This document shows, in pieces, positions 1 to 56,993 of a DNA stretch of 64,000 nt. Source of the stretch: a virus; IMG/VR virus record IMGVR_UViG_3300030430_004105, positions 1-64,000 of that record, one strand, 5' to 3'. A program made the translations under genes and the position numbers. The notes under the pieces are model-generated. The model did not search any database. It was given only the letters and a program-made list of their open reading frames with translations, and had not been told where the DNA came from. Numbering within the stretch: position 1 is the stretch's first letter; every line of letters begins with the position of its first letter.

Positions 1-1237
1 CCTCTAATTTTGCAATAATTAATGGACGAGTTTTCATAGATGTTGTAAAGCCCGGTACAGCACTTGGGTTTCCTATTGCAGATACTTGTTCAATATATTC
101 ATTTGATCCTTTGAGGCTAAAATAAATGTTGGGATATTCTAGATCAATAAGTTTTTCTAAGACTGAATACCCAATGTTGTTGTTTTCAACTACTAGTAAG
201 CAGCCACCGTACTCTCTTCCTGCAGAATACAGCATGTTTGCGAAGTCATCGATGTTTGGCTTACCTTTGTATTCTGCTACAATCTCCATTGTATCAGTAT
301 TGACAACATGAAACACAGAGTAGTCAGCACCGTCACCTCTGGCAACGTCTGCAACTAGCACATACTTCTTTCCGTCTTGGCACTCTTCCCAGATCCAATA
401 GTTTCTGTCATACCCAACCTTGTGCTTTGGCTCACATATCATCTTTTCGATTCTATCTATATCGTCAGGAGCAATCACAGTTTCACCAGAAGCATTGAAA
501 TTACATTCATACTCTTGTGCAATCTGTCTCATGTTCATGTTCTTTGTTTCATCATCAAACCATTTAGCATCCCTATCTGGGTGTCTGCTCCAATGTAGCC
601 TTGTGGGCTTGAAATTGTTAACTCCTGACTCTGCATCAACGTAGGTAGTGTGAAACCAATTACCAACACCATTAGGTGTTGAGAGGGCAATACAGCGCCC
701 CCCTGTGGATATTGTAGGGTAGATACCTGTCCACAATTGCTCCATGTCTGGAATGAAAGCAGCCTCATCAAGCACTAGTAAGGATAATGCTTCCGAACGC
801 CCAGCATCACCTGCAGTAGATGAAGCCTTGATCCAAGATCCATTAGAGAGTTCAAATGAAGTTCTGTTGTCCACAGTAATCTTTGCAATCTGCATCCACT
901 CTGGTAAGGACTTAACCATCTCTTTTACTTTGATTACAACGTTCTTTGCTGTCTCTAGTTTGGTACAAAGAATCAAAACCTTCTTGTGTTTGTGGAACAT
1001 CATTAACCAAGCGACATGAGCAGCAACAATTGTCGAGATACCCATCTGTCTTGCCTTAAGAACTACATTAAAGCGATACTTCTCTAGATCAACTAGCAAC
1101 TCGTCTTGAAAATCGTATGTATCGAAACGTACCAAGCCGTGAACCGCATGTGGAATGCGGCAGAAGTTATTGACAAAGTATTCTTGAGACTTGCCACATT
1201 TTAATAACTCTTCTACGGCTTGTTGTTTCGATATCAT
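1..1237 (-). CDS. Terminase large subunit (gp17-like), 3' end outside window
   Basis: ATP-driven DNA-packaging motor and headful nuclease. About 412 residues are visible, from ATG at 1237 to the window edge with no stop. The N-terminus reads MISKQQAVEELLKCGKSQEY. A Walker A-like motif KARQMGIST lies near residue 60, as in phage terminases where the classical P-loop is degenerate. Walker B LLVLDEAAF is near residue 155 and is followed by the coupling motif LSTPNG. The RNase H-fold nuclease begins with LVADVARGDGADYS near residue 295, whose Asp residues fit metal-binding motif I, and VVENNNIG near residue 350 fits motif II. The Shine-Dalgarno sequence AGGAAACT precedes the ATG. It follows gene 1248-1610 by ten bases. 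The first bases of this gene and its leader recur twice upstream (near 1654-1689 and 2124-2152). The family call is very secure; the C-terminal catalytic residues are off-window. Confidence 0.95.
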   Translation of the reverse strand, partial: MISKQQAVEELLKCGKSQEYFVNNFCRIPHAVHGLVRFDTYDFQDELLVDLEKYRFNVVLKARQMGISTIVAAHVAWLMMFHKHKKVLILCTKLETAKNVVIKVKEMVKSLPEWMQIAKITVDNRTSFELSNGSWIKASSTAGDAGRSEALSLLVLDEAAFIPDMEQLWTGIYPTISTGGRCIALSTPNGVGNWFHTTYVDAESGVNNFKPTRLHWSRHPDRDAKWFDDETKNMNMRQIAQEYECNFNASGETVIAPDDIDRIEKMICEPKHKVGYDRNYWIWEECQDGKKYVLVADVARGDGADYSVFHVVNTDTMEIVAEYKGKPNIDDFANMLYSAGREYGGCLLVVENNNIGYSVLEKLIDLEYPNIYFSLKGSNEYIEQVSAIGNPSAVPGFTTSMKTRPLIIAKLE

Positions 1238-1254
1238 AGTTTCCTAATTATAAT
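1219..1254 (-). repeat. Terminase translation-start repeat, copy 1 (functional)
   Basis: Minus-strand leader AGGAAACT followed by ATGATATCGAAACAACAAG. This is the start of the terminase gene. Closely similar stretches occur at 1654-1689 and 2124-2152, where the reading frame closes after 15 and 22 codons. Confidence 0.7.
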
Positions 1255-1610
1255 TTTGACTGTATCTCTCTTTTGTAAAAATTTAAAGAAGCCGTCATGT
1301 CTCTGCTTCTCTCAAATTGCATAGCATAATCTTCAACGGCTCTTCCGATTTCTTCTTTCGAAACGCCTTTGAATTCCATATAATCCCTAACAACTTCAAT
1401 AATTTGATCAATCGACTGAGTTGTTTGAAAGTTTTTACTTTTAGATTTTGCATAGCCAAAAAGTTTTTCGTCCAAGCCACCGTCTCCTGCATTTCTTGAT
1501 CTTAATCGTGGAACGGGATCAAGATTTATATAATTGCCGGTGTTTTCATTGAGGACTTTGCTTAACTCCTCTTTTATCAATTGTTTGATATAGTTTTTTG
1601 TTACTTTCAT
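1248..1610 (-). CDS. Small protein with putative capsid-targeting leader (paralogous leader A)
   Basis: A 120-residue protein of unknown function. ATG at 1610 has an excellent ribosome site, AAAGGAGGAAGTCGCT. Residues 1-16 (MKVTKNYIKQLIKEEL) form a basic/acidic amphipathic helix followed by SKVLNE, which fits the L-x-E cleavage consensus of T4-type prohead proteases. The next gene upstream (1685-2059) carries the same leader but a different body. In T4, internal head proteins use such an N-terminal targeting peptide to enter the prohead, where it is cut off. That this is a packaged internal protein is inference from the leader and from its place beside the terminase. The body is acidic and helical with no motif I recognise. 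It could instead be a minor neck or head protein. Confidence 0.75.
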   Translation of the reverse strand: MKVTKNYIKQLIKEELSKVLNENTGNYINLDPVPRLRSRNAGDGGLDEKLFGYAKSKSKNFQTTQSIDQIIEVVRDYMEFKGVSKEEIGRAVEDYAMQFERSRDMTASLNFYKREIQSKL

Positions 1611-1640
1611 AGCGACTTCCTCCTTTACTTTTTCGCTTTA
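1561..1640 (-). repeat. Leader cassette repeat, copy A
   Basis: About 80 bases holding the strong ribosome site and the first codons (MKVTKNYIKQL...) of gene 1248-1610. They are highly similar to 2011-2089 over the same elements: GCGAAAAA, stop TAA, GGAGG, ATG and targeting-peptide codons. The similarity ends inside the gene body, so the cassette is the duplicated part. Confidence 0.75.
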
Positions 1641-1672
1641 AAATCTTTTTCTTCTTGTTGTTTCAATATCAT
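1625..1672 (-). other. Truncated terminase-start remnant, 15 codons
   Basis: ATG at 1672 opens a 15-codon frame, MILKQQEEKDFKAKK, ending in TAA at 1625. Its leader and first six codons match the true terminase start at 1237 almost base for base, then diverge. I read it as a scar of tandem duplication at the terminase 5' end. It could still act as a short leader peptide that couples translation into gene 1248-1610, whose ribosome site overlaps its stop. Confidence 0.55.
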
Positions 1673-1689
1673 AGTTTCCTGATATTATC
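1654..1689 (-). repeat. Terminase translation-start repeat, copy 2
   Basis: Minus-strand AGGAAACT then ATGATATTGAAACAACAAG, a near copy of the terminase start at 1219-1254. It lies immediately after the stop codon of gene 1685-2059, just as the real copy lies after gene 1248-1610. Confidence 0.7.
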
Positions 1690-2059
1690 TGCCACGAACA
1701 TATTCAAAGCCACCACTTTCGGCGCCATCACCGTACTCGATCTGGATTTGGATTTTGTCACTAAGCAATGCCGAAGCAATACTCTCAGCCGGCAGTCTCA
1801 ACATTTTACTCCAGACTTTACCTGCATTCATAGCAGCCTCTTTGGGATCCCTACCATATTCTCCTGCTTTAGCAAACCCCTCCATTGCGATTAATGGCGC
1901 TTGTCTTCCTCTGACGGATCCGAATTTGCCCATTATGTTATATTCTAATAAATCATCCGACAATATTCGAACAAAACCTCGGACATCACTTCCTTCTGCC
2001 AAAGTTTTTTCTAATTCTTCTTTTACCAATTGTTTGATATAATTTTTTGTAACTTTCAT
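1685..2059 (-). CDS. Small protein with putative capsid-targeting leader (paralogous leader B)
   Basis: A 124-residue protein of unknown function. I start it at ATG 2059, which has the ribosome site AAAGGAGGAAATCGCA and begins MKVTKNYIKQLVKEEL, matching its downstream neighbour. A longer frame from 2176 would overlap the preceding gene and translate an AT-rich spacer. After the leader comes EKTLAEG, where L-A-E fits the T4-type prohead protease site. The body (with GKFGSVRGRQAPLIAMEGFAKAG in the middle) differs entirely from gene 1248-1610, so the two share only a leader. A packaged internal head protein is the favoured guess; direct evidence is limited to the leader and position. Confidence 0.75.
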   Translation of the reverse strand: MKVTKNYIKQLVKEELEKTLAEGSDVRGFVRILSDDLLEYNIMGKFGSVRGRQAPLIAMEGFAKAGEYGRDPKEAAMNAGKVWSKMLRLPAESIASALLSDKIQIQIEYGDGAESGGFEYVRGR

Positions 2060-2089
2060 TGCGATTTCCTCCTTTAGTTTTTCGCTTTT
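2011..2089 (-). repeat. Leader cassette repeat, copy B
   Basis: Counterpart of the repeat at 1561-1640. It has the same GCGAAAAA, TAA, GGAGG, ATG and first codons of the targeting-like peptide. It precedes gene body 1685-2059 instead of 1248-1610. Confidence 0.75.
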
Positions 2090-2142
2090 AAATTTTTTAA
2101 AAAATTTATTAAATTTTTTTCGGTGTGTTGTTTTGATATCAT
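2074..2142 (-). other. Truncated terminase-start remnant, 22 codons
   Basis: ATG at 2142, overlapping the TGA of gene 2139-2636 as ATGA, opens MISKQHTEKNLI and closes at TAA 2074 after 22 codons. The first five residues, MISKQ, equal those of the terminase at 1237. An AT-rich run then leads to the GGAGG of gene 1685-2059. This is the third occurrence of the terminase-start signature in about 1 kb. Confidence 0.5.
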
Positions 2143-2152
2143 GGTATCCTGC
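2124..2152 (-). repeat. Terminase translation-start repeat, copy 3 (more diverged)
   Basis: Minus-strand AGGATACC then ATGATATCAAAACAACA. It is recognisably the same element as 1219-1254 and 1654-1689, but here the leader also encodes the last residues of gene 2139-2636. Confidence 0.6.
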
Positions 2153-2636
2153 GGTATCCCGGACGAACGCCGTCACCTAGAGCATCATAAACAACACGCT
2201 CAAATATCTCACGAGCACCTTCTATGTCTTTTAATACTTTCTGTTCTCTTTTCGGATCGTAACGCCCATACTTCGATGTTGATTCTTCTGACACCGTGCT
2301 TCTCATGTACTCTTCCATCTTTTTATATTCAACTTCTAACTGTTGGGTAGTCATATTGTTTATTTTCAAAAAATCCATGACAGCAAAAAGAATTTCTTTT
2401 CCAGAATATTCTGGATTACCACCACGATCTTTATTACCTAACTCAGCACAAGCATTCCACAACTGGAGAGGAAAATTACTAGTACCATCATAAAGATCAT
2501 TTTCGTTAAAAGTCGGTTTTGCATTTGGATCTAATGGCTTAGATTTTTGCGGAGGAGTAGAGTATTTTCTAATATAGTTCTTAATATCTTCGTCCTCGTT
2601 AACAAATTTTCTAAAATTTTCAAATAACTTTTTCAT
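2139..2636 (-). CDS. Small protein with phage-type amphipathic leader
   Basis: A 165-residue protein of unknown function. It starts MKKLFENFRKFVNEDED. This aromatic/basic amphipathic N-terminus ends in V-N-E and resembles the T4 internal-protein targeting peptide (MKTYQEFIAE) in length and pattern. The rest is charged and helical, with a proline/lysine-rich linker at residues 26-45 and a C-terminal helical region near residues 95-165. It sits in the same small-gene group as 1248-1610 and 1685-2059, upstream of the terminase. A head internal protein is possible by analogy. I recognise no enzymatic motif. Confidence 0.75.
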   Translation of the reverse strand: MKKLFENFRKFVNEDEDIKNYIRKYSTPPQKSKPLDPNAKPTFNENDLYDGTSNFPLQLWNACAELGNKDRGGNPEYSGKEILFAVMDFLKINNMTTQQLEVEYKKMEEYMRSTVSEESTSKYGRYDPKREQKVLKDIEGAREIFERVVYDALGDGVRPGYRRIP

Positions 2637-2639
2637 AAT

Positions 2640-3194
2640 TTAATCCTCGTTTTTTGCTGTATAATTTGAAGGCTTCTTAGCCTGTTCTGCGCCTTGCGAA
2701 AGGAAATCCTTGATCGCTTTATCAAGTCTATCTTCTTCGCTTGGTAACCCAACATGCTCAGCATCAACCCCACCTAACTCAAATTTTTGTTGAGCAATAA
2801 TTGACACCCTTTGTCTTGAGATATATTGCATGTTGATCTCGATTTCTGAAGGTTTGTTAAGGCTAAGAGATCCTTCACCTCCAACCTTTTTATATTCTTT
2901 CTTAAGAAACTTCACAATATCTGCAATGCATTGTTCAATATCAGAAGTCAACTGTGGCTTGTGTGAGTCTTTTGCTGTGCATTCTGTATGGTAAGATAAC
3001 ATGACAGTGTTGCCCATAACTCTGATATTGAAACCGTCGATTACACGGGAATCCTTAATAGAACACCCTTTTTCTCTTTTTAGTCCGATTTCTTTTGCAA
3101 GATCCTCGCCTGTAAATCTTTCATCATGTGCTCCATCATAAGCATTTGCTGCTGCTTGTTGTAGCGCTGTTACGATTTGTAATGTTGTAGCCAT
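2640..3194 (-). CDS. Conserved phage protein of unknown function, possible virion component
   Basis: A 184-residue protein starting at ATG 3194 (MATTLQIVTALQQAAANAYDG) behind the ribosome site AGAGGAAC. A longer frame from 3320 would run through the preceding gene and is not used. The sequence has an N-terminal helical segment, then GLKREKGCSIKDSRVIDGF, and a central region ending LKKEYKKVGG before alternating strand-like segments. I recall similar proteins in aquatic T4-like phages without an assigned role. The location among small genes beside the terminase fits a neck, head or accessory role, but nothing in the sequence proves one. Confidence 0.8.
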   Translation of the reverse strand: MATTLQIVTALQQAAANAYDGAHDERFTGEDLAKEIGLKREKGCSIKDSRVIDGFNIRVMGNTVMLSYHTECTAKDSHKPQLTSDIEQCIADIVKFLKKEYKKVGGEGSLSLNKPSEIEINMQYISRQRVSIIAQQKFELGGVDAEHVGLPSEEDRLDKAIKDFLSQGAEQAKKPSNYTAKNED

Positions 3195-18716: not shown

Positions 18717-21700
18717 CTAATATCTGCCATCGATGCCATCGCCTCTGTTGATTCCAGATCCACCAAGTGGATTTGATCCATCGCCTTCACGCTCTACTCT
18801 CCTTCTAGTAGTTTCAGACACTACTAAAGGTTTATTTTCGGCATCTCCACCTTTGGGCGTTCCTCCGCCCCCAGAATCAGTATCGTCAGATGGAAGATAT
18901 TCAAGTATTTTGTTATCAGCATCTATAACCACTTCTGCCTTGTATTCAGGTAAAGAAACAGATGTTGAATCTTCGGATCTTCCACCCACTACTGCTGTGT
19001 TGACACCTACTGTACCAATGTTTTCAGTTGTTATTATCCCTAAATCATAGCCGATAGAGTTGTCTGCATTAGAAGTATCTTTCTCTTCTGCTAGCATGGT
19101 GATATCAACAGAAACTTTGACGTTCTCAACCATAGAAAAGAAGTCATACGGCCAGTTGTATCCTAATTTCATGCTTGATGTTGTATCATCTGAGTTTTGT
19201 TGAGCAAAGCCAAATCTTCCATCTGCTAGATCAGATTCCATTTTCTCGTCATAATTTCTAGCGCCTTTCTGCTTGACTTTGAATATCATCCACTTGACGT
19301 CTTTAAGAGATTCAATTCCGTCTCCGTTTTCATCAAACAGCCCGCCAAGAAGTTCATCAACATTGACATCGTGAGAGATGGTTTCTTGTTTGAATTCAAC
19401 CTTCTTTAGGCTTTCCGTTCTTACGCCCTGCCAGATGCCGTTGAGATCTTCTCTATCTAGGCTCTTTTCAAATTCAAAGATATACATCGGCAAAGGTTCA
19501 ATGTCATTCTCAATGAAATCTAAGTGAGGAGGTAAGTTATATTTTTGCATTTTGTCAATTTGATCCTTGACAGATTGCCCAATTGAACTTTCGAATCCTG
19601 TGCGACTGGCTGGAGTTCTTGCAAGTCTATCTTTGGATACCAGATTATTCTGGAATAGATACTTATCTACTTCGAACTTATCTAGAGTCAAAAATTGTCT
19701 TTCGTTGTCTTCGATTGCAATGTAAGGAATTGCAATAACCGCTTCACGTATTATTTTAGTCTGAGCGGTGACACCCATTTTGACTTTCTCTTGACTAAAC
19801 CCTACCAAATCTGCTAAAGATTTAGTTGAGATTGTAGATCCTTCACTGTGCATAAATTTACCCCATCTAACAGTAGATGCGTTTCTAGCAAAGTTCTTGT
19901 CGTTTTGAGGAGCCATTTGAACTTTATTTTCAAAAGCCAAGCCTGTTCCGCCACCAGCGTTGTATCTTATGCTACCCCTGATAAATGTCGGCTCTGGATA
20001 ATCATACGATGAGGTGGTAGCAGCGGATGGACTTGAGGCAACTGCTGGATTATCTGGTATAAGTTTAAATCTCCTAGTGACTGATCTGCTTTTGAGTCCC
20101 TTAAATTTCTTATTATTTTTCTTCTTTTTTCCTTTTAAGCCAAAGAAATCTCTTCTTTCTTTATCGGACATATCAATTTTGGCAAAAGACTTGATACTTG
20201 GGTTCAGTTCTACCAATTTATCTTCTAACTCTACAGGTACAATCTGTTTTTTGCCGTCAACATCTACGCAAGATATATCTGCTCTATCTGACAAATCTGC
20301 AGACTGATCTGTGTACTTCACTCCAATTGAGAATTCTTTCAAGAAATCTTCGAATAATCCTCTGGAGAAACTACCATAATCAAAACTTAAACTAGCATAA
20401 TCTTTCGCTTCAATCAAAATAGGAGTATATGTGCCTGCCCTGTCATAATTGTAATATGCAGTTGCCCAGTTGCCTTGATAAGATCCACTTGATTTTTGAG
20501 GGTAGGATGCCGATGATGCTGTAGTGTTAATAAACACAGTGTACAAACCACCGGTGAAGGCAGAGTTAGTAGTCAACATGGTTTTATCAGAAGATTGAAT
20601 AATCGTAAACAGCCCACTTGAACTTTGTGCATTCTGGATTGATCCATATACTGCTGTCAATTCTGCAGAATTTAATTCAGCATCTATAATAATCCCATCA
20701 TCTTTGTTTATCAACTGTATAGAACTACCTAGAACAGACAGATCTTCTTTGCCAACCAACTTTCTTCTTATTTCTTGCTTCTTAAAATATGGAAGGATTG
20801 TCTTGCCCGGATTCTTGTTGTAACCCAAGTTAAGCCCTGCACCATCACAATCGTTGATATCTGGCTTGACTACAGTGTATTTTGGATTTGCAATTGTCAG
20901 TTCTGTTCCTAAAATAGTGTAGTCATCTGGAACATCCATCATTTGCATGAAAATACCTCTTTCGTCAGATTCAGGGAATTCACCATACTGGTGCCACATT
21001 CCGATAGGATTCAGGATACCGCTTAGTTCATGAACTGCAGACAAAGAAGAGTGTGCTGCACTCAAAACATCAGGCTCGCTTCTGGTGCCACTCAGGCTCA
21101 TGCTTGCTGTGTGGATGTCAGAAGTGGAAACTTCGCTTTCAAAAGCAGCGTTGTGTGGACGATTCAAGTATTTAGAGAAGTCAAGTATCGGAGTCTCAAA
21201 CTTGGATTCGATTACCCAAGCCTTTCCAGCGTTTTGCTGATTAGTGTCAATTTCAGATATAACTCCTTGACTGCTGTACTTAGCAGGATATACACTGACT
21301 TGCTTGAACAGGTTGAAAGAAGCGTCAATTTGCATTGCATTTTCATTGATGGCGAATCCTTGCGGCCCGAACGTCCCTCTGTCTCCATAAGATCCTGATT
21401 CATGGTTTAACTCATATCTCAAGAAATCCACAGTAGTTTTTTCAAGTATCTCAGAAAGCGTGTGCTTGCCTGCTCTTTCCGGCGTAAATGTGTAGATAGC
21501 CCAAGCCTCTCCATCATAGTACGGAGGCGTAAATGGAGCATTGTAGCCGTTTGTAGAGTCATACATCATATATGTTGTATTGTTATGCTTGCCAGTCAAA
21601 GGTGTGATGTCATCCGTGTCCAAACCTTTAAATTCAACAGCGACACCACCAGCACAAGGAGGGCCGAAAGCATTTGGCTGTGAGTACATTGTGATTGTCT

Positions 21701-24700
21701 CAACTTCTGCATAAGGATTCATTTGAGGACGTGGATAGCCAACTGATTCTAGATCGTACTCTAAGTCAGTGCCAGTCAAGTTCTCATATTCTCTCAAGAA
21801 ATAGTTTGTTCCACTCGGTGGGCGATAATAATATTTATCAACCTTGTTGCTGTCAATATACTTAGTACCCGGAACAGTACCGTCAGTCTTTACGACTTCA
21901 GTGACACCTTTGAACTCAACCCAAGGATGTTGCTTCTTGGACTTATATACTTTGAATATCGAACGATAAACTGGAAGTATTCCTGCATGATTGGCGATAA
22001 CAACACCAAAATCAGGATGATTGTCGGGCTTAGAAATGATTCTAGACGTCTTGCCATCTTCTAAGAAAAATCCAATTGCTTCTGCAAAGAAGTTATTAGA
22101 CATTAGTTTGTAATTTTTATCTCCAATACCATTCCACTCGGTTCTCAAGTTGACTGAGGAACTAATATGCGGATTAGCATCTACAATTCTCTTTGAAGCC
22201 AAGTATGCCTCTGGGTTGATAAGAGTTTCGAAAGGCAATCTGTCATCAAAGTATTCATTGTTGATCATATAGTTTTTACCACCATAGGGATCCGAGAGAG
22301 ACGCTGTGGCAAGTTTTGATGTGATGATAGGGTAATCTACTGCCATACCAGACTTAATGGTGTTATACAGCAATCCCGGCGACATAATGGCATCAAAAAT
22401 TGGACGTGACTGTGCAAATGTATTGTTGTCAGGAAATAGCAAATTGGTGTTGCTCTCGTCTGCTTCTTCAGCCAAGAAGTTTCTTCCATAAGAATCGGCG
22501 AACGCTTCACACATTTGAACAGTTCTAGACTGAGGATAGAATCCATCATAAGGTAAGAAACTCATAATCGCATCACATGTCAAAGTCAGTTTAGCGACAC
22601 TAGCATCTCCTCTGTTTTCTTCAATAAAGTTTTCCATATTTTTTATATCTGAAGATATGGAGTATTCTTTTAGAAATTCATTTCCAGATATGTTTATCGT
22701 ATTGCGATTAACTGTTACGCCGTTATCTGCACTGGTACCAGTTATCTCAAGCCAATAATTCTTCTTGAAATATTCAACCTCAGAAGACTCACCAGCGACT
22801 ATATCCTTTACGTGAGAACTAATTCTGAACTCAGGCACCAAAGAGAAGTGCTTATTGTGTCCTCTGATATTCTCGTACCAAGTATTATAATCATCATCCA
22901 TAGGAGTCAGCCCAGACAAGTCTGGAGTTGTCCATCTAGAAGTATTATCATATAGTCCATCTGTGGCATATCCCAAAGAACGTGTTAGGTTGAAATGGTT
23001 TGATCTTAACTTGTATTCTGCGCTAATTAGCCCAAGACTTGACTTGGCAGTCGGAGATCTCAAAGATCCCGGCGAGGTTAGTACGTGAGGATAGTTGTAC
23101 CTAGGTTGTGGTATTATTTCTCCAAACCTTAACAAAACTGGATCGTATCCTCCGCTCATGCCGGTGGCTGCAAAAGTATTTCCTGTTTCTGTTATTGGAA
23201 TATTTCCTGCAGTTCCCAGCAAAGATGAAGTCATATGTAATCTAGCAGCGTCGCCAACAGGTTCAATAGTCACTGAGGCGATAGAAGCAGACGCTTTGAT
23301 TGATGCTGAGAGATTGTTGAAATAATCGGCGTTCGATATGGTATTCAGATTGTTCACATTTGTTCCACAAAGAACCTGCCCTGCTCCTGCAGATGATCCA
23401 GTTACAAGAGTGAGAGTCACGCCATTAATCGTAATCGTGTCGCCTGCTTTTGCACCAGATTCATCTGATCCACCATCTGTGTTGGCAGCGATCGTGAACC
23501 CAACGCCGTCGGCGCCATTATATACAGATGTTATATCACTGTTAAACAATGCACCAGTTGCAGAAGATGTAATACTAAATGTTGCGATATTATTTGAAGG
23601 CGAAATTGATATTGTGTCAAATACGGTATTATCTTTGATCGACTGCGATAAGTCATTCCAAAACAAAGTGCTTTTTTCTTCGTCAGTTCCAGAGTAGCCA
23701 GAGGCATCAATGAATTTGTCCACTACGGTTGAGGACTCATCTCCATTCAGATCTACTTTAAAAATCAAATTTGTCTCAGTGCCGTCTCCATCTGTGTCAG
23801 TAAAAAATCTGATAAAATCCAAATCTCCAATACCAATTGGTGTAGTTCCGCCTGCAGCACCTTCCAAATTAAAGAAAGTTCTATTATTGGAGGATCTAAC
23901 AAATGCAACGTTTTGAGCGGTACCTGTCACAGATGAGGTTAATTTCATGAATCTTCTGCCAGTAGGCATACCAGAGGTAGAGGAACCGCCTGATCCAAAC
24001 GAAGATGAATTTAATATTTTAAAAGTTAATTCATTTGAAAATGCATTGGCTGATACTCCGGGACTGGCGTTGATCTCATGAACACCGGGTGAAGAATCGT
24101 GAACAATTGTGAAAGTTGTTCCACCAATCGTTATTGTGTCTCCTGCCTTGGCACCAGATTCGTCAGTTCCCCCAGATCCAGCGTCTATAATGTTGTATGA
24201 AAGCCCAGAATTTGCCCCATCTTCTGTAACGTTCGGATTGGAGTTAGTTGTACCAGTAACAGAACTTGTAATAGAAAACAACATCATTCCACCCACAACA
24301 GAACCGGTATTCGCTGTGTGTGTTGTATTACTATTTATTTTAGATCTTAAATTTTCCCAAACAGCAGAACTGGAGTTAACAGAAGAAGATAAAACGTTAA
24401 ATTTGACGCCCGAGTTGTCGCTTGTTGTTGGAGTGAAAGTTTTCGTACCGCCTGTTCCGGGATTAAATATAATAATATCATCACCCGGACGAATACCAGA
24501 TTCATCTGTTCCGTTTGAAAAGTTTGTTCCTGCTGTAAAAGTTGGAGACGAATAAGCAGCGCCGGTTCGATTACCAGTGGCACCAGATTCTGATGAGGTT
24601 ACTGTAAAGGTTGCAGTTCCGTTGAGATTATCAACATATGAGGCAGCGTAGTACCAAGGCGCACTTTCTAGTTGCGCTTTTAAAGCATTCCAAAAATTAG

Positions 24701-27700
24701 TATGAGTGGTGCCGTAAACAGTTGAGTCAAGATATTTACGAGTAGTAGTGTTCTCACTAGTTCGATCACTATAAGCAATGTATAAATATCGAAACTGGCT
24801 GCCAGCGATAGGGAATTTGATACGATCATTCTCTTGTGCACCAACATCATCTTGCCCATTTGAGCCAGAATTTGTCACATTAAATGAAGAGTGTGAAGAT
24901 GTCACCACACCATTGTCAGCCTCTCCTCTGTTCTTGGAAACAATATTGAATGTTGCCTTATTGCCCACAGAAGATCTATTTAAAACTTCCCATCCCGGAA
25001 CAAATCCAGAATTTATCACTGTTTCCATTCTGCTCCAAACATCACTATCAGCGACGCCTACGACATTTACACTAGTGTTTGCAGAGTTGTTGCTTGCCAA
25101 ATTGACAGTTGTTCCATCAATATCTATGGAGTGTCCGGTAGTAGAGCCAGATGGAGCACCTCCTCCAGTTGCTGTATTGATAGTAACTTGAGTTGAGGCT
25201 TCATACAAAAAGTATGCGTTGCCTCCACCAGCGTTGACGGAATCAACACGTATTTCATTTGTGTTTTGCAAAGTAGCAACAACATTGACAAGACTGGAAT
25301 TGTTGATTGCGGAAACTATTTTGTTGTACAGATTGGCTGTGTTTGTGTAGTCTGTTATTTCAATATTCACTGGGTTCAAGGTATGTCCTGCACCTGCAGT
25401 GTCCGTACCATTACCAAAATCATTAATATTAATATAAAGATAATTACCATCATTAATGACGGCTCCAGTTGTATAATCATTACCTTTTCTTATTTGTATA
25501 GATGCAGCATATGGAGCAACTCCAAGCCCAGAAGCCGCATTTCCACCAGTAAAGTTTGCACTAGTGCCAAAATCGTTAAATGTATTGGCAAACATCGATC
25601 CTGTATCAAGTGTTACAGCATCATTATCCGTCTCCTGAACGTTTCTTGTGACAACATAAGTCGCTTGATTACTAAGAGTGGTATAATTGGCGCTGGCAAT
25701 TTCTGAGTCTGATTCGAGAGAGTATTCAAGGTGATTGAAGTAATGTTCAGTGCTTGCAGTGTAGTGAACTAGCGAACTTAAACCAGTTGTATAAGGAACT
25801 GGCCTACCTTCGTGAACAACCCCAAATGTCAAGTTAACATTACTATTGTGACTAGGAGTAACAAAAGTCAAGTTTTCATCTTTTATAGTATATGCCTGTG
25901 AATCTACGCCAGTTACAGGCGTAGTAATACCTGATAAAGTTTTTTCTGCTCCAAGCACTGTTGAAGGTGTGGCATTAAAATTTGGCATGTCGCCAGTGGA
26001 TGGATTATCTTGTCCTCCAGAAAATACCCACCAAGACAAACAATTTGAAAAATATTTAGGATGTGTTTGGAGATTTCTTGCATAACCCTTATTGTATATT
26101 TCTTCGATGTCTGTAAAGCCCAAAAGTGTGTCCCAAATCGATAAATGCGCTAAGCAGCCTTGTAGTTCAAAATTTGAACTATTAACAAATGGACTATCAG
26201 CGACAAAAATAGAGTTCACCTCTCTCAAGGCTCCAGTATTAGATTTCGATGTAGTGTCGTAACTTTGAAGAGCACTGTTAATTCTCAATTCTGGATCATT
26301 TTGTATACTATCGACATCAAAAGTAATTGAAAAGAACTGAAATCTAGTTGTTTTCATTATACCTTCTTTCTTCCATTCATTATAGTAGCCACTAGAATTG
26401 TACATGCGAATGTACAAATCATCATATTGATAGTATACCACTATTGTTTGATCTGAAGGGGTAGTATCTTTGCTGTCCTCAGCAAAACTAAGAATATATT
26501 GATTTGTGCTACTAGCGATATTGTCAGACTTTAACCAAAAGCAAACTGTGAAATCTCCGGAGATAGTATATGAATCATTGTGGACATCCATTCTTTGAGC
26601 CAAACCGGTGGATGTCCATCGCCATGATCTAGATCTTTGCTGAGCAATCAAAAAATCTCGTGGCGTGTAAACGTTCGCAGTACCATCACCAGCGAAAGTA
26701 TATACATTACCTTCATCTAGAGGGCTTGAGTGCTTTATCTTGTGAGTTCCTCCTTTAATATTTACATTAGAGTTGGAAACGATTTCGCCGCTTATTGTGT
26801 TATGCTGAGCGCCGAAGTATGTGGTTGAACTAAATGGCTCATAAGTAGTTGTAGTTTCACCGACAGTTACGTCTTTAGTGATGTCATATGCTGTTGGCAA
26901 ATCATAGCCTACATCGTCTGCTAGAATCCTAACTGTACTGGAATTTCCGAAAACTTCTGCTGTATATGGCTGTGAATTTGCGGTAAAACTAGCGTTTAAT
27001 TTTTCTACCCATGCTAGCCCGAACTCTTGATCCGATTTTAAATTTTTGTTTGAGTATGACGCTTCAGATCTTAACAACTCTACGGCGGTGGCGGTGGACG
27101 GAGTAATTGACAAGTGATTTGTTCCGCCTCCGATATCTGTGATGTCTCCAGATGATATATCGTCAGAAACATAATTTCCCGGACTCCAATAAGTAACTAA
27201 GTTTGTACTAGGAGCCAAGTCATTTAAACTTGTCCATTCTCCACTATTATAATAGTCTGTTTCACTTGGGGCACTGGTGCTATCATATATGCCTATTTCT
27301 CCGATTGATAGATCAAAATTTGTGCTGTTGTCTCCGACGAAATAATTTCCAGCAGGAGCACTTGGCGCATACGTGTTGATAACAACGCCGTTATAGGTTG
27401 TTGTCTTGGTGGTGTATTCTGTGCCATCACTGTATGCACTCCATTCTTCAGTAGCAGGATTTGTATCAGAAATTGATAACTTAATGGCATGCCAAGCGTT
27501 GTTTCCGTTCGTACTGAATGCGAAAAAATTGGTAAACCGTGTCTCAATGTAATTACTATTAGAGTTTTGATAGTATCGTCTGCATATTAAGTGATTATTG
27601 GCGCCAGACTTTTGGTAAAGTATTTCAATCGCATGAGTACCTGAACCAGTGCGATAAATCTTTAAAATATTATATGTACCGTCAGCAGATGGGTTGATTC

Positions 27701-30700
27701 CAGTTTTATTCTTCATCGTAAACAAAATGGTAGTACCCTGATCGTTTGTGAATCCGCTAAAACCGCCTCCAGAAAGCATTGAGTTTGATGTAATCTTTAT
27801 AAAACTAACTGGATTATACACTGGGATATGAATATTACTAGCGTAGTTGTCTGTATGATCATTATTATCAGTTACAATGTGATATGTTTGTGTCTTGAAA
27901 GTTAATCCGGTTTCATGATAGTTAGAAGGAGTTGAAGTAATAGTTGAGATACTTTTCGGAGAAAATATGAATGCAAATCTATCTCCATATCTTGGTATAG
28001 CCAATACTTTTAAATTTGCAGTAGCGGCAGAACCTGCCGTGTATCCGCCACCAGAAAAAGTGAAAATTTGCTGTGTTGTAGAGCCAGCGAAACTTGCCCC
28101 ACTCATCTCAAAAGAAGCGGTAGAAAATTGTCCAACAGTTGTCGCTCCTGTGACATTAAATTGAAGGGACGCACTAGCAGCAGGGACATGCGCTCCAGAG
28201 ACATAGAATTTTGAAATATGACGTGTTCCCAGAACAGTTGCAGAAGAAGTGAACTCAAATGATCCAGTTGCTTTAACGCCCGTAGGAGTCATGCCGTGGA
28301 CTGTGAAAGAGCCAGAAGAATGCTTTCCAAAAACTGTTGCTTTTGTGGTTATAATAGATCCAGTTGCTGTAGATCCAGTAACTAATACTGTCTGTAATCC
28401 GTTATGAAAATGATGATCTTGATTCTGCAGAACACCGGGTGCTCCGGCAGAGTTTGATGCAGCCACTTTAGGACTAGAACTGGTAAAGTTAATTCTAGAA
28501 TCCATGTTCCATATTGACTGCGAAGGGATGATGTTTGTCAATTGCCCTGAATCAATGAAGGTTTTTGTTTGGCTGTTTATCGCTTCTTTTGAGAATAATG
28601 ATGCAGTAACGTTTTGTTGCCTTCTTCCTACTTCGTCCAGCCCTAGATAAGAGTTTTCTCCAGTGTCTGTGTTGTAAAGAACGTTCTCGCCATCTGTCCA
28701 AAACTTAGATACAAAGTAGTGTCTATGTCTTACATTATATTTTGTGTGCTTCAAGAAATCAGGGAATAGATTTTGTCTAACTCTAATTGCTTTCAGCGAG
28801 AATGCCTCATGATCTTCATTCTTGTAGTATCCCAGAACGTTATCATAGATCGTCTCATTGACACTTGGATTAACTCCTTCTTCGTCAAACTTGGTGTTAT
28901 CAAAATGATACTTCATGTTCACGTAAGGATGCACAAAGCGAAAGATCTCGTCTTTGAATTTCATAGTTGTGTATATGGGAATGTTTTCTGTGATTCTAGA
29001 TTCTTCAATTGTTTCCGCAGTACCGTCTGTCTCTAGGCTATATCCATAAGATTTTTTGTTGACTACGTTCTTGTTTGTGTCGTTGTTTCTGACTTGTTCC
29101 CAAGAAGGGTAGCCATATACAGTGGTACCTGTCATTCTTTGGTTAGTGACACTTTGGCTCACCACAGCATAGTTGATGTTTTCGTGTGGATATATAGAAG
29201 ATGTCCCACTTGGCTCTGAGAAATCTGATAAGATGTGCCCAGCAAGTGAAGATGTAGCCAATGAAGCAGTGTGTGATGCTTTAACCCACTTGTATTGGAA
29301 GTCAGACTGTGGAATCTGATGCTGTATCCAGTAGTTGTCAAAGTCTTTCTCGCCTTCTGAAGCGTCCCATTTTGGGTTTCTATTGACTTTATGATATGCA
29401 GGATTGGTACCGCCCAATACAGAATCAATTCCAAACTGTGCTGCATGACGTGTCAAGTGCACAACAAGTCCAAAGCGATTACCGTGAATATCTACGAGCC
29501 TAATCGTGCCAGATTCTCCAGAGCCTGAGCCTCTAACTTGCAAGTTCCGGAAAGGGAGAGAGTTGTATGCAGACTTTTCTTTGCCGAACATGTCTAAGAA
29601 TACTTCTGACATTGTTTCGAAACCTCCGGGAGCAGAGAAGCGATTTACTATAACAGATTTTCCTGTACCAGCAACTGAATTCTCTGTTGTAGTTTTGACA
29701 CCGCCCAGATACAAACTCGAAGTGTTGAAGTTAGATGCTAAATTACCGTTCCCACCTACACCCCTAGAGATCAAACTTGCTTCTAAGTTAGTCTCTGGTA
29801 AGGCTGAATTGATGGGATTGTGCAAATTACTGTCACCTATGTCTCTAAATCTTGTTTTGTTTACAGATCTCCCGAACGTATGAACAAACTGATATGTCTT
29901 CTGGTAGTTACCAACTGCTCTTTCAGATGTTTTGATGTTCTTGATATTAACAGGGCGTTTTGCTCTTTCGTCTCGATAGTATCTAGCCTTTGCTTGATTA
30001 ACATAAAAGTGAGGCGGTGTAGAGAAACTAGAATTAGGAACAGGATAATCTGCCCCAACAATACCAATAGAACCAGATTCGTTAAGGATATTGTTGATCA
30101 ATATTTTATAACCTTCGGCACGGTTTGTGGGCGAGTCAGATCCTCTGTTTATGTTACTGTGTCTAGATTGATGTCCTCCAACCCATCTCTCTGTAAATGG
30201 AGACTGCATTGGAATTTCGTTCGTGTTATCCGTTGTATCGGAATGAACATTAACAATGTCAATATTTTGATTACCTCCGGGGATTCCGTTAACTTCTGCT
30301 GAGTATCCAGTGGTGACAGACGAAGACATGATGTTGAATGGCATAACCATGCCACCCTTGAAAAGCCCGTCATGTCCACCAGACATGGCGTGATGAAACG
30401 CTGTGAAACCATCAATGGCACTGAATGCTCTCTTGATCTTCTCTGTTACTGGACGTTCATCTGTGCAATCTTTCAAAGACTGGAACATGTCGCTGTTCGC
30501 AACAACGTATCTCAAAGGGAAAGCACCAAATTGTCCATATAGTAGTGGATACTCAGCGGCTTCTTTTGTGGCACTCCAGATGTAATCTCTTTTCTTGTTA
30601 TCTTCGTAGTTAATTCCGCCATGTATGACTCTATCTCTTTTCACTGCAAAGTGTTGCGGTGTTGTAAAAGAACGATTCAAGACTGAATTTCTGGCTTGAA

Positions 30701-33700
30701 ATACTTTAACACGAGTATTGTTAGAGCCAGATGCCGATCCAGATAAAGGAGGACGATCTCTCTCTGCTCTCTCAAGCCACCAAAAACAGTTTTTGTTCTC
30801 AGGAGTTCCGCCAACTGGAGCATGTCCTTGCTTCCATGGATATAGGTGACGGTTAATCGTGTTCATGCCACCTTCTGGTGTTGGAGCCTTGAATTCAATC
30901 GTGGGGAACTTATTGGTGTATTTGTCTCTAGAGAAGACGTAGTTCTCGATAACATTATTAACACCATCAGAATGGGCTAAGGATGCAGGTACAAGCGCTA
31001 CTAGCATCTCGCCTAGTGCATCATCCAACCATTTGTAGTAATCGATGTATTTGTCCAAATCGGGCTCGTTAGACACCCTTTCGAAGAAGAGTTGACGCAA
31101 CTTGGACAGAGCCTTATACTCCATTCTGTATTTGTCAACAGGGCGTCCAATAAGATTATTGAAGTCTGTCACTGATGACATAAAGTTTATCATCTCTTGT
31201 GACACTGTTTGCGCCATGGACTTCTCAAAAGCGATGTAATATTCTTGTGGAAGTGTCTCTTTTGTGAAGACGATATCATCTTGAGTTCTGATCTCGATCA
31301 TGTCATCGCCTTGGAGGATCTCAGGATAAGTTGATCTTGCCGCTGTGATGTAATCTACATCTATAGCCTTCTCGTCACTGACAGGCATGAAATCTAACTT
31401 ACCAAAATAAAATTTGTTCTTTACTGCTTCAAAGTTGGCGTTGTATTTGACTGGTGCCGAGCCACTTGAAGCGTCTAGCACTATCGCCTGTCCGCTTGAA
31501 TCTGTCTTCGAGAGAGTTGAAAAATTCCAGTTAAGCACCAAAGTATCGATTTCTGGTACTTTTGGAGAGTTTGCATCAGTCTGTGCCAGATATGCTGATC
31601 TAAATGGAGAGTTGGCGCCATAATTTCTGCTATCGGAACTGTGTCTTTTGAGAGTTTCGTTCGATAACTCACTGTACCATAACCTAGTGAAACCTAATTT
31701 GATATCACTTCTGTCTACCAGAGATCCAGTGAAGTTTGTTCTTTTCGCTCCAGCGTAGATTCTTTTTGAATTTACTAGGAATGAGTGAGCACTGGCAGAT
31801 GCCACAGAAGAAGTAAGCACAAACGAGTTCAACTCAGAACTATCAACTGTGTTATATCCTATGAAGTGCAATTTATAATTACCATCATCTGAGGACGATA
31901 CTAAATTTGCAGTAGGGTGTTTGTCGTTTACTATCTTGAAAGCGAGAAGCCATTCGTTATTGTCATACATCCCATCATATAGAGAAGAAGAAAGGTGAAC
32001 ACCCAGTGCAGATGAACTCAAGTGAAATTTAACTCTTTTTGATTCAGTCTCATCTCTCTCCACGTACATTTGCATGTCGCACTTATCAGGATTTGCTATG
32101 GCATAATTTGTATTTGATGTAGCCTGATGCATACCAGCAATCACAGACTTTGTAAAAGGGGTGGCGAATCCAAACGGTTCATCAAAAGGCAACTTATTAG
32201 GCAATATTATCTGTGTTTCGAAAGTCAAAGGTATGAACTTTTCAAAATTAGACGTAGAGCCGGTTATGAAACTAATGTTAGATCCAGAAGGTATCTGGTA
32301 TATAGAGGCATTAAATCGATCTGGGTTGTTGAAATCAATAAACTTCTCTTTAACAGATCTAATAGAGTACCTGTCTTTTAATTCAAATTCTACATTGTTG
32401 CCGTAAAAATTAATCTTAACAACTTCTTCGTCAATACCAAATGCATGCAGTATGTTACGGAAACCTTTGTTAGTTCCCTTTTCTTTATATGTGTTTATTA
32501 GTCCAGAATACACATTTTGGTAAATCTGGTTCTTCACGTCGTGAAGTTTCATCTCGTAATTTTCATCTTCGCTTCTTTTGGCAAGTTTTTCTAGCACGGT
32601 AGCATCAGAAAACAATTCAGGGGCAACAAAACTAGCATTTGTTAAAAGCCTGTCAGCGAATGGAAGAGGCTTGACTGATCCAGAAGTGCTAGTATTTCCA
32701 TACTCATCGCCTGTTTTTGTTTGAAAATGTGCGTATATATCTTTCAGGCGATTAACTTCTCTTATATGCAGGTGCATATTGTCAAAATAAGATGCAATAA
32801 TTTGCGTTAGGTTCCTAAGATTTCCTTCTTTGACATCATCGTCTTCTAGAATCCATTGTGGCATTGTGTGAAAAATCGATGAGTTGTTGTACATATCGTA
32901 GTGTGATCCAGACGCCTCTAGTTCGGATAGAGTAGAAATGTAATCTGGATGGTTAGAACGGATGGTTGGATCTTTAAATTCTTTATCTATGACTTTTGCC
33001 AATACCATGGCAGAATCAGTGCTTCTCGCACCAGACACATAACCCGTCCAAGCGCCATTTGAAACTCTACCAGAATAGTCTAGAACATTTGAGTCGAAAC
33101 TAGCAGTCTGAGTGATTCCTTCATTGAATTTGTAATATACGCCAAGTTTAGTATTAGCCTCATCAGTGTTTGTTCCACCACCGATTGTATTCCAATAATA
33201 TCTACCAATTTGTTTTGCAGTTCTCTCGGTTTTCCAATATCTGAACTCGTCTAGCGAGCCTGAGAACTTACCTGCACCTGTCTGAATGGTAGGAGATCCA
33301 GAAGGAGCGGTTTGTAGCGCCCCAATAAATGAAATTATCGATCCTGTTATATTATTAAGAGCGGCAGATGAAATTGTCTGTTGATGGTTTAGTGCTCCGT
33401 TAATATACAGATTGGTTGACAGGTTAGAGCCTGTATTCTTCAAAGACAAGGCAATGTGAGTCCAATCTGTAATTGATGATGTTGTAACATTTTGCCCACA
33501 AGACTGATTCTGTATGCCGTTTGTTCCGCTCAAAGCAGTAAATAAGAACGGAGAACCGGCAGCAGCACCAGTAAGTTCTAATCGAAACCTACCATACTGT
33601 GCTGAACTGGACGGCTGTCCGTTCCACAAGTCAAATAAAACCTCTTTTTCTGTTTTTGATGTGTCAAAAGCAGGCTTTTTTACCCACATTTCAACCGTAA

Positions 33701-49443: not shown

Positions 49444-49905
49444 TCAGATATCGATTTTATTCAAATATTTTGTTACATAATCCGTACAAATGTAATCGTA
49501 CTTCTGTTCGTCAATATCCGGATATCTTTCTGGGAATAGAAACACAGTGTTTTTGCCACTAGTCTCTTTATTAGGGTATGCCCAGATATGCCCTTTAGAT
49601 GTTATTGTATAATCATCTTCTTGGTGCCAAAAACAATGTATTTCAGAAGCCAACATTCGCTCTAGAGCATCTTTGTTTTTAGCATGGCACCAAAGCCCTT
49701 CTTGCTTAAGGAAAGTCTCTTGGATTTGATATTTGGGACTGTCATGTCCTAACAAATATTTTTCATCGATATACCAAACATCTATTTCAACATGAAAACC
49801 AGAATCCAGCAATGCTTGGATCGCTGCTGGGTGGTTTTCTACGGTTGTATCTTCTCCTTCGGTATATGCTCTGTGAGAAATAATTATCACTCTGTTAATC
49901 CCCAT
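49444..49905 (-). CDS. GDPD-like (glycerophosphodiester phosphodiesterase-fold) protein, short
   Basis: A 153-residue protein. ISHRAYTEGEDTTVENHPAA followed by GFHVEIDVWYIDEKYLLGHD matches the N-terminal half of the GDPD TIM barrel, where HR, EN, E-x-D and HD form the metal and catalytic site. At 153 residues it is about half the usual length, so it is a compact or partial barrel. The start overlaps the RLP gene by 19 bases. It may hydrolyse a phosphodiester in a lipid- or teichoic-type glycan. The family is clear; activity is uncertain because of the short length. Confidence 0.7.
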   Translation of the reverse strand: MGINRVIIISHRAYTEGEDTTVENHPAAIQALLDSGFHVEIDVWYIDEKYLLGHDSPKYQIQETFLKQEGLWCHAKNKDALERMLASEIHCFWHQEDDYTITSKGHIWAYPNKETSGKNTVFLFPERYPDIDEQKYDYICTDYVTKYLNKIDI

Positions 49906-51077
49906 TTTTCAATTGCGATGTGATATTCTTCGCCATATTCCTTGTCAATTGATTGCCTCATAGCCATCGCTCCGCTCTTGGATCCATTAGGGTGTCCGTG
50001 AATCGCTCCTCCGACATTAGCCATATAGTCCAATCCAAAACGCTTGTTGATGGCTTTTACAAGCCCAGCATGCATACCACAACTGAGGGCTGGCATTACA
50101 TTTCTATTATGAAGAACGTCCAAAGTATTCTTAAGTTCGTCTTCGTTGTCAGACATATACCCTCCCCACATTCCAGCGTGAATAAAATCAACTCCCATCA
50201 AGCCAGCAAGATCACAAATAACATCCCAAGAGATGTGATAGTCATGAGATTTATTAGTCAAAACTTTGTCTCCGCTTTTCTGAAAGTGTATGAACATAGG
50301 AAGATCCAACTCTCTGATCGATTTGTAAACTCCCAGTCCACTCCAAAAATTAATGTGTACTGCGTTTGCTCCAAGTTCATATACCCTCTTTACTCTATCG
50401 ATAACATGATGAGGATCACAATTTATACAAACTGCATAGACAACATTCTTATCCTTCAAATATTCCATAATCTTTGGAACCCTTTCTTCGATTGGGCAGC
50501 ATGCAGGATTAGACATGATCTCATCTTCTTTGATGAAATTGATTCCACCTTCTACCATTTCTTTAACCATCTCTAGCAAGACATCACTGTTGACACCAAT
50601 CTTAGGCTTCACGATCCCTCCAAATAGTGGTTTATCGTGAGCACCAGTAAAGTCTCTAATACCATCAATTCCATATTTCGGCTTCATGAAATAATTATCT
50701 TCTATATGCTGTGGAAAGTCCACTTCCAAAAGATGACATTTGGTAACAATATCGATATCCATTTGTCCTCCCATAAACTGGCACAGCAAATGTGAAACGC
50801 CATCAGACTCAAAGTCAGTGTTGGCAATAGGAAAGGCAATTGTTACCTCTCCCTCTTGTTTTGTTTTAAGTACTTCTTCGTTACCAATCACAAAACAAGA
50901 GTGATTTTCAAACAACTCATCTGTTTCCCAATGGTTTCGGACATTAGGGTTTCCAACACTCTGTCCTATGCTCAAACCCCATGCAGCATCTCTTAAAGTT
51001 TCATTAGAAGATAAAAAATATCTACATAAAATGTATTTCTCTCTATCTATCTCGTCTATTGTTCTAAAAATTTTCAT
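49887..51077 (-). CDS. RubisCO-like protein (form IV type, RLP)
   Basis: A 396-residue protein in the RubisCO large-subunit superfamily. KPKIG gives K157/K159, equivalents of K175/K177. GGINFIKEDE gives the carbamylation-type lysine K183 with D185 and E186, equivalents of K201/D203/E204. IHF (H264) matches H294, DFIHAG (H300) matches H327, LSCGMH (S332) matches S379, and GGAIHGHP matches the G403/G404 loop. R295 and K334 of true RubisCO are replaced (by F and in a WGGYMSD loop), so CO2 fixation is unlikely. The N-terminus (GLSIGQSVGNPNVR) is RLP-like. Known RLPs are enolases, isomerases or decarboxylases of keto-sugar phosphates. It is coupled to the nucleotidyltransferase by ATGA and lies in a glycan cluster. 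The substrate is unknown. Confidence 0.9.
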   Translation of the reverse strand: MKIFRTIDEIDREKYILCRYFLSSNETLRDAAWGLSIGQSVGNPNVRNHWETDELFENHSCFVIGNEEVLKTKQEGEVTIAFPIANTDFESDGVSHLLCQFMGGQMDIDIVTKCHLLEVDFPQHIEDNYFMKPKYGIDGIRDFTGAHDKPLFGGIVKPKIGVNSDVLLEMVKEMVEGGINFIKEDEIMSNPACCPIEERVPKIMEYLKDKNVVYAVCINCDPHHVIDRVKRVYELGANAVHINFWSGLGVYKSIRELDLPMFIHFQKSGDKVLTNKSHDYHISWDVICDLAGLMGVDFIHAGMWGGYMSDNEDELKNTLDVLHNRNVMPALSCGMHAGLVKAINKRFGLDYMANVGGAIHGHPNGSKSGAMAMRQSIDKEYGEEYHIAIEKWGLTE

Positions 51078-51796
51078 AATTCCTCCAATTTTGTTAAAAA
51101 ATTATTTAGTTCTTCAGGAGTTCCCATTCCCCTCATTTCATACACTGGATAAGGTTTAACAACCCCTCCTCTTGAGTTTATTAATATATTATACACTGGG
51201 CATATATAAAACTCATTGTTAAATCTAACGTTTCTAGATATCATCTCTTCGGCACAAGAAACATACTCTGATCCTTTAGCCCAATAATACATTCCAACTG
51301 TTGCAAAGTTACTTATCACTTGCTTTTCGGCAACTTGTGTAATGTTTCCTGTATTATAGTCTACTCTTGAATACGAGTGCTTTGGGCTATCAGATAAGAA
51401 AAACGGTATGCAACCATCCAAACCTTTACAATAGTTCTGGAAGTGTTTAGGATCCCAATCAACCCATTGATCCGCATTTGCAATAAATAATGGCTCGTCA
51501 TTATCAATATACTCTTTGGCTAGCAATGTTGTACATGCAGCACCCTCAGTTAAGCCATCTATCTCAACTAAAACAGAATTTTTTACACAATTTCGCAAAT
51601 ACTCTTTCATCTTTGGGTATTTTTCCATGTGTTGTTTTTGGACTATGAAAATGTGTTCATTTTCAGGTAATCCAATATTTTCAATGACTCTTTGAATCAT
51701 TGGTTTTCCGGCTACATCTATTAAAGGTTTAGGATCTGAGTAACCTGCTTTAAAAAATCTAGATCCTGCTCCTGCTAATGGTATTAATACTTTCAT
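51074..51796 (-). CDS. Sugar-1-phosphate nucleotidyltransferase
   Basis: A 240-residue Rossmann-like NTP transferase. The N-terminal LIPLAGAGSRF followed by KPLIDVAGKPMIQRV is the nucleotide-binding signature. LFIANADQWVDW supplies the metal-binding Asp region. Such enzymes make NDP-sugars for surface glycans. It is tightly coupled to the RLP gene downstream, which suggests the two act in one pathway. The exact sugar cannot be read from the sequence. Confidence 0.88.
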   Translation of the reverse strand: MKVLIPLAGAGSRFFKAGYSDPKPLIDVAGKPMIQRVIENIGLPENEHIFIVQKQHMEKYPKMKEYLRNCVKNSVLVEIDGLTEGAACTTLLAKEYIDNDEPLFIANADQWVDWDPKHFQNYCKGLDGCIPFFLSDSPKHSYSRVDYNTGNITQVAEKQVISNFATVGMYYWAKGSEYVSCAEEMISRNVRFNNEFYICPVYNILINSRGGVVKPYPVYEMRGMGTPEELNNFLTKLEEL

Positions 51797-51805
51797 TTTT
51801 TCTCC

Positions 51806-52549
51806 TTAAAGTTTGTATGCCCATCTTACCAATGGCACCATTCCATCTTCTTTATTTTTGTAATAATTGTCATATTTTTTTTGTATCATAAAGTTACCCA
51901 TGTCTTCGAATAACCCCAGTTCTCTTAAATGCCTAGCGGCAATCATATGGTTAGAATCTAGTCCGTATGTTTCTAAAATATCATAAATTCTAGTAAAATT
52001 ATACATATTATCGGAATTTGCAACAAACAATAGATCCCCAACTTCATAGTAATGAGACTCTCTATCGCAGCAAGAACCACGACATATTTCTGGATTGTAC
52101 ATATGTATTGGATCTGAGCCATTGTGATAAAATCTTTTCATGTCTAATCTGGAATCTTCAAAGTCAATCTTTTCTTGCAATGCTAAATCAAATCTAGATA
52201 ATAATACGATATCGTACTTTATATTATGTTTTTGTTCATACTTTCTCATAACATCTAAAGATCGTTTGATAGAATACCAATTGCTTTTTATGGCAAATTG
52301 TCTAGTACTAAGATTAGAGCCAAAATCAATTTGATCTTGAAAAATACATCCTTTTGGATTATACATAGAAACCAACTCATCTTTAAATTGTCTATCCCAG
52401 CAATGAAAAAACACATCAACATCATTATGATCTAACAAGTTCTCTTTCCAATGTTTAAACCCAATCTTTGCCGCATTCATATTCTGCCGTCCTAAAACAT
52501 ACTTTTTATTATTTCCTACTTTTCCTCTCATACATAATGCTATTTTCAT
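51806..52549 (-). CDS. Putative glycosyltransferase-like protein
   Basis: A 247-residue protein beginning MKIALCMRGKVGNNKKYV. VDVFFHCWD, KSNWYSIKRSLDVMRKYE and IVLLSRFDLAL suggest a Rossmann-type transferase with a possible metal-binding acidic site (RFDL). I have seen similar sequences in phage and bacterial glycan clusters without a firm family. It sits among sugar genes, so a glycosyltransferase role is likely but unproven. Confidence 0.6.
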   Translation of the reverse strand: MKIALCMRGKVGNNKKYVLGRQNMNAAKIGFKHWKENLLDHNDVDVFFHCWDRQFKDELVSMYNPKGCIFQDQIDFGSNLSTRQFAIKSNWYSIKRSLDVMRKYEQKHNIKYDIVLLSRFDLALQEKIDFEDSRLDMKRFYHNGSDPIHMYNPEICRGSCCDRESHYYEVGDLLFVANSDNMYNFTRIYDILETYGLDSNHMIAARHLRELGLFEDMGNFMIQKKYDNYYKNKEDGMVPLVRWAYKL

Positions 52550-52552
52550 CTC

Positions 52553-56976: not shown

Positions 56977-56993
56977 ATAAACCTCTTTATATA

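Follow-up and report, generated by a model that had tools for sequence, protein, structure and literature searches.

Candidate capsid-targeted cargo genes with two leader types beside the terminase gene of a marine T4-like phage

Gene content at the terminase end of the contig

We analysed a window of 64,000 nt belonging to an 83,218-base contig (IMG/VR) of a marine T4-like phage, in which three small minus-strand genes adjoin the DNA-packaging (terminase) gene. Their products, which we call P1 (1248..1610), P2 (1685..2059) and P3 (2139..2636), correspond to the three open reading frames that the sequence-only reading had proposed as leader-bearing proteins. The start of P2 is an ATG at 2059, preceded by AAAGGAGG, although the mechanical open reading frame runs on to a GTG at 2176. 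On one side, the large terminase, a gp17 homologue with tblastn relatives up to 97% (1..1237, minus strand), is cut off by the contig end. On the other lies the MATTL protein (184 aa; 2640..3194, minus strand), the conserved upstream flank of a slot for leader-bearing cassettes. The 5' end of the terminase gene (from 1237) and the 3' end of the MATTL gene are both duplicated in scars between the small genes. By terminase, the nearest cultured phages are Flavobacterium phage vB_FspM_immuto (46%) and Microcystis phage Mel-JY01 (43%).

Two classes of leader

P1 and P2 share a leader, here termed class A, and have unrelated bodies, as had been noticed from the sequence. Both open with MKVTKNYIKQL[I/V]KEEL and carry L-N-E (P1) or L-A-E (P2) at residues 20-22. 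The leaders (MKVTKNYIKQLIKEELSKVLNE at 1545..1610 in P1 and MKVTKNYIKQLVKEELEKTLAE at 1994..2059 in P2, both minus strand) have a predicted cut after E22, past which the payloads extend 98 and 102 aa, respectively. An 87-nt direct repeat with 89% identity comprises the two leaders and upstream DNA, and the bodies show no similarity to each other. We searched the contig with a leader HMM trained on other contigs, with this genome and its nearest relatives left out. Only four of 355 ORFs scored below an E-value of 1e-4: P1 (1.8e-10), P2 (7e-9) and two proteins in L001 (contig positions 64001-83218, outside the window), at L001:385-1260 and L001:1272-2168. Since an HMM from other contigs picks only leader proteins, the likeness of the P1 and P2 leaders is above chance.

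P3 carries a different leader, termed class B (MKKLFENFRKFVNE; 2595..2636, minus strand), which has 14 residues, a predicted cut after E14 and a payload of 151 aa past it. Relatives match this leader and little or nothing beyond. Across 19 class B payload clusters, the leader has aromatic residues at -6 and -3, mostly V, I or L at -2, and E at 0, a spacing identical to that of MKTYQEFIAE, common to T4 IPII and IPIII. In T4 IPIII, residues 4 and 7 direct targeting and residues 8 and 10 processing (PMC9026906). The P3 leader matches the spacing of aromatics at positions 4 and 7, whereas the P1/P2 leader is a different helix. The likeness to the T4 CTS originally suggested for all three proteins thus holds in detail for P3, while P1 and P2 belong to a different tag class. 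The P3 cut motif is V-N-E, and V occupies the same position in the immuto major capsid protein (MCP). L-x-E counts in class B involve some circularity: a permissive form of the motif was already built into the regular expression, and the informative signal is only the invariant final E (19/19, with D/N allowed). An AlphaFold model of P3 alone was uninformative (pLDDT 48).

Leader conservation ends at the predicted cut

Class A leaders, with a consensus of approximately M-K-I-T-K-x-x-L-K-Q-I-I-K-E-E-L-x-x-V-L-x-E, sit before 87 unrelated body clusters in our first set and 102 in an enlarged set. The proposal that the leader ends at an L-x-E site was borne out across these families. Among 86 independent payload families, 45 had [LI]-x-E within 10 residues of the helix, compared with 13.5+/-3.1 in shuffles (0/2000 reached this number), and downstream control windows contained the motif in 3-8 of about 83. 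Column conservation (in bits) drops to background just past the E, with 0.95 at position +6 and 0.24 at position +7 (null 0.14). Between P2 and its orthologue in L127, L20 and E22 are retained and residues 19 and 21 are changed.

We describe the KEEL-type tag of P1 and P2 as a 22-residue amphipathic helix. A low-confidence model of P2 (AlphaFold, one homologue, pLDDT 63) has a single helix (residues 5-22) followed by a separate domain that starts at residue 26; compared with the PDB, it had zero matches at E<=0.001. Two features of the leaders count against their carriers being head cargo: a strict [LI]-x-E is missing at the boundary in roughly half of the class A leaders, and the K-E-E inside the leaders supplies alternative I/V-x-E sites. 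The pattern of L, then E, then G could alternatively mark the end of the helix.

A prohead protease in relatives and its expected specificity

Neighbouring head genes are missing from this contig, whose edge falls within the terminase, so its lack of a protease is uninformative, and the question of whether a gp21-like protease accompanies the leaders had to be answered in relatives. There the answer was positive: a T4-type prohead protease (PF03420) was found in 9/9 relatives searched. The T4-type major capsid protein gp23 (PF07068) was present in 7/9, the remaining two being fragments. The contig of the closest relative (L125, with 97% terminase identity) has both.

T4 gp23 is cut between E65 and A66. 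This column was invariant across five MCP homologues aligned with T4 gp23, reading LLRE/A in three relatives, IVSE/A in immuto and LISE/A in Mel-JY01 (the slash marks the cut), and the active-site columns His85 and Ser140 were invariant in the protease alignment. The protease of this clade is therefore expected to cut after [L/I/V]-x-E, a form that the predicted cuts in P1 (VLNE/N), P2 (TLAE/G) and P3 (FVNE/D) all match.

Prohead proteases were also more common among leader-bearing contigs of at least 20 kb (10/15) than among controls (7/23; Fisher p=0.03), a weak comparison given the fragmentary contigs and hand-picked controls. The five leader-bearing contigs with no PF03420 match may all be fragments. 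These results bear on whether the leader could instead be an oligomerisation or partner-binding helix unconnected with the head, for instance one that binds a phage or host cytoplasmic complex. Its amphipathic helix and the many carriers without known function would suit such a role. We nevertheless consider it very unlikely, given that the leader is associated with the prohead protease and sited in the head gene cluster, that its conservation stops at L-x-E, and that a swap with the class B leader, which is T4-CTS-like, falls on that very residue.

Gene order and a second leader slot in relatives

Relatives share the gene order MATTL, terminase, portal, two small genes, leader genes, protease and a 146-aa gene, followed by tail/fibre-like proteins, a scaffold-like protein and the MCP. 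Leader genes between portal and protease form another slot, at the site where T4 (gene order 17-18-19-20-67-68-21-22-23) has core proteins 67 and 68. For the conserved 146-aa gene that follows the protease, we considered and dropped the idea of a class A leader, as the HMM did not support it. As a separate observation, a bS21 homologue (PF01165) is encoded among the head genes, on the downstream side of the prohead protease gene, in two contigs (L133:17003-17215 and L233:22183-22410), and the homologue in Mel-JY01 carries the annotation RpsU.

The shared position with genes 67 and 68 raises the possibility that the class A leader serves as a helix for binding the core, its carriers being gp67/gp68-like scaffold parts that would be broken down within the head and not delivered as effectors. 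Consistent with this, one protein (L001:385-1260) has the leader at both ends, and the P1-P3 bodies are not basic. Core parts would be conserved, however, as gp67 and gp68 are in T4, while the leader slot of the relatives is variable and dispensable, and its payloads are mutually unrelated and often missing from near relatives. Some payloads also have enzyme domains. Overall, we regard a scaffold identity as unlikely and favour cargo that enters the head by its tag.

Cassettes apparently stacked in one slot

The slot between MATTL and terminase varied in content among related phages. It is empty in L125 and about 30 other loci, holds one tagged gene in L121, P2 and P1 in L127, and P3, P2 and P1 in the window. 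The L127 orthologues of P1 and P2 are 84% and 57% identical, respectively. The first cassette comes directly after the MATTL gene in both L121 and L127.

Each joint between cassettes in the window contains a scar in which the start of the terminase is joined to the end of MATTL, both on the minus strand. Scar 1 (2074..2142), at the P3/P2 joint, encodes the in-frame remnant MISKQHTEKNLINFLKNLKAKN, and scar 2 (1625..1672), at the P2/P1 joint, encodes MILKQQEEKDFKAKK; each ends at a stop, as does the remnant at the P2/P1 joint of L127 (MISKQQAEKNLKAKN). The remnants have a terminase-like start (MISKQQAV...) and a MATTL-like end (...NYTAKN and a stop). Because the junctions are fusions of terminase start and MATTL end, we interpret the cassettes as stacked by recombination, and the simplest history suggested by the scars would be unequal joining of genomes that each had one cassette in the same slot.

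A plain tandem duplication, after which the bodies of P1 and P2 diverged or decayed behind a functionless leader, would also leave an 87-nt repeat of leader and upstream DNA. This account is largely refuted, and we give it almost no credence: the repeat ends where the bodies start, L127 has a conserved orthologue of each body, the same leader stands before about 100 unrelated bodies, and the scars are joins of separate cassettes. The stacking of separate cassettes, in turn, agrees with an earlier expectation that payloads at this locus would be exchangeable, as empty, one-, two- and three-cassette alleles, roughly 100 unrelated bodies and one exchanged leader were found. Cargo thus appears to be swapped and stacked among related phages.

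Payloads and the exchange of leaders

The bodies of P1-P3 gave nothing significant against Pfam and PHROGs and matched no T4 IPI, IPII or IPIII family; by sequence, they fall outside the T4 IP families. Their net charges are +1, 0 and 0. Among 99 tagged proteins, recognised domains were few and comprised AAA_33 (an AAA kinase), SET, NUDIX, zeta-toxin-like and HAD domains.

One pair of proteins indicates where the modules are joined. The class A leader of L167:69-308 runs into its body as ALNE/GAVPHSAHH, and L157:5085-5591 has a class B leader, the shared body beginning after MYE/GAVPHSAHH. The bodies are 93% identical over 57 residues, and homology in the DNA starts at the E/G codons. In this single case, one payload is found under either tag class, and the module boundary coincides exactly with the predicted scissile bond.

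Tagged genes also occur in longer runs. A 186-kb contig carries eight consecutive tagged genes with different bodies (L237:5001-8829; classes B-A-A-A-A-A-A-B), and L238 has a run that is mostly class B. Within L238, a SET-domain-like protein with a class B (T4-CTS-like) leader (L238:3613-3993) is a possible packaged methyltransferase.

More leader proteins in this genome and in other phages

The count of three leader proteins made from the window is confirmed, and the same genome has three more outside it, in L001. L001:1272-2168 was found by the HMM, and L001:14801-15301 has a class B leader (MKKLFENWRKFTNE). L001:385-1260, on the minus strand, carries the class A motif at both termini, each beside L-x-E: it starts MKSKVTKSYIKQLVKEALQE/T (ALQE/T) and ends RLEE/SKASKVTKSYIRQLVKEEIRKGKK (RLEE/S). 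In T4, gp21 trims Alt at both termini (PMC9026906), so L001:385-1260 fits the same tag-and-trim logic; no sequence relation between the two proteins was shown.

Leader genes are numerous in a 484-kb uncultured phage (L246; LR756508.1, 141500-191000), with at least 12 of class A within 50 kb, in runs. In cultured phages, tblastn with one class A and one class B leader query gave no match, possibly through low-complexity masking, and the P2 orthologue as query gave only E-values of 0.8 or worse. Given the lack of a leader match by tblastn, we inspected the N-termini of immuto and Mel-JY01 proteins directly. In immuto, one leader (MKKSQLRQIIKEAL) is clearly class A-like and others are weaker, and the protease and gp23 are present as well. 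The leader strings had no match in the literature searched, which is a weak test of novelty.

A proposed route from prohead to host

Taken together, these patterns make it likely that P1-P3 are T4-like capsid-targeted internal-protein cassettes, the cargo of a T4-like head. We infer their prohead entry, cleavage, ejection and effector role, with injection and effector function suggested by likeness to T4 internal proteins (PMC9026906, PMC3012670, PMC9391042). The N-terminal tag would bind the prohead scaffolding core and bring the protein inside, where a gp21-type protease would cut at VLNE/N, TLAE/G and FVNE/D to free the mature cargo. Packaged alongside the DNA, this cargo would enter the next host on ejection, where it would most plausibly disarm defences or aid take-over. 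Payloads may be interchangeable because the head requires the tag alone. Tag-plus-payload cassettes would occupy the MATTL-terminase slot, and recombination between single-cassette genomes would generate stacks and scars.

Like T4 IPI, IPII and IPIII, these genes place a short N-terminal tag on unrelated small proteins, partly in tandem, and share with them the (L/I)-x-E cut (here predicted), a gp21 protease (here seen in relatives) and variation among relatives (PMC9026906, PMC3012670). They differ in that P1 and P2 are tagged with a KEEL-type helix of 22 residues that does not resemble the T4 CTS, and in that the bodies have no sequence relation to IPI-III and are not basic. Their slot adjoins the terminase, while T4 ipII and ipIII lie near denV/e and ipI near 57B. 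In phiKZ and SPN3US, a distant relative of gp21 cuts head proteins after x-x-E, and some of these proteins are ejected (PMC9026906); the phiKZ motif, S/A-x-E, is unlike the motif here.

On balance, the KEEL-type leader seems to be a second, undescribed capsid-targeting sequence of distant T4 relatives, the 484-kb phage included, which would load a large modular cargo repertoire stacked with terminase/upstream-gene scars. We see the novelty in the second type of tag, in the scale and in the scars left by stacking. IPI of T4 is an inhibitor of a type IV restriction enzyme (PMC3012670), and T4 needs IPIII on E. coli ECOR17 (PMC9391042). By this analogy only, action against bacterial defences is the most likely role of the payloads. 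T-even phages are known to combine a conserved tag with varied anti-defence cargo; here, a different tag, arrays of up to eight genes and a legible record of stacking occur in uncultured, mainly marine, distant T4 relatives. Because the tag is a sequence handle, proteins that bear it become candidate injected effectors, and hundreds of phage proteins that lack annotation could thereby be tested for a first-response role against defences.

Other genes in the window

Elsewhere in the window, a single 5171-aa ORF (18717-34232, minus strand) lies in the tail/baseplate region. A glycan biosynthesis cluster (51074-57998, minus strand) contains an NTP transferase, a histidine phosphatase, NeuB, an RraA-like aldolase, a CMP-sugar cytidylyltransferase and a GDP-mannose dehydratase. 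Within a sugar/nucleotide-sugar gene cluster, a protein resembling the RuBisCO large chain (49887-51077, minus strand; PF00016, E 1.7e-33) is likely a RuBisCO-like protein.
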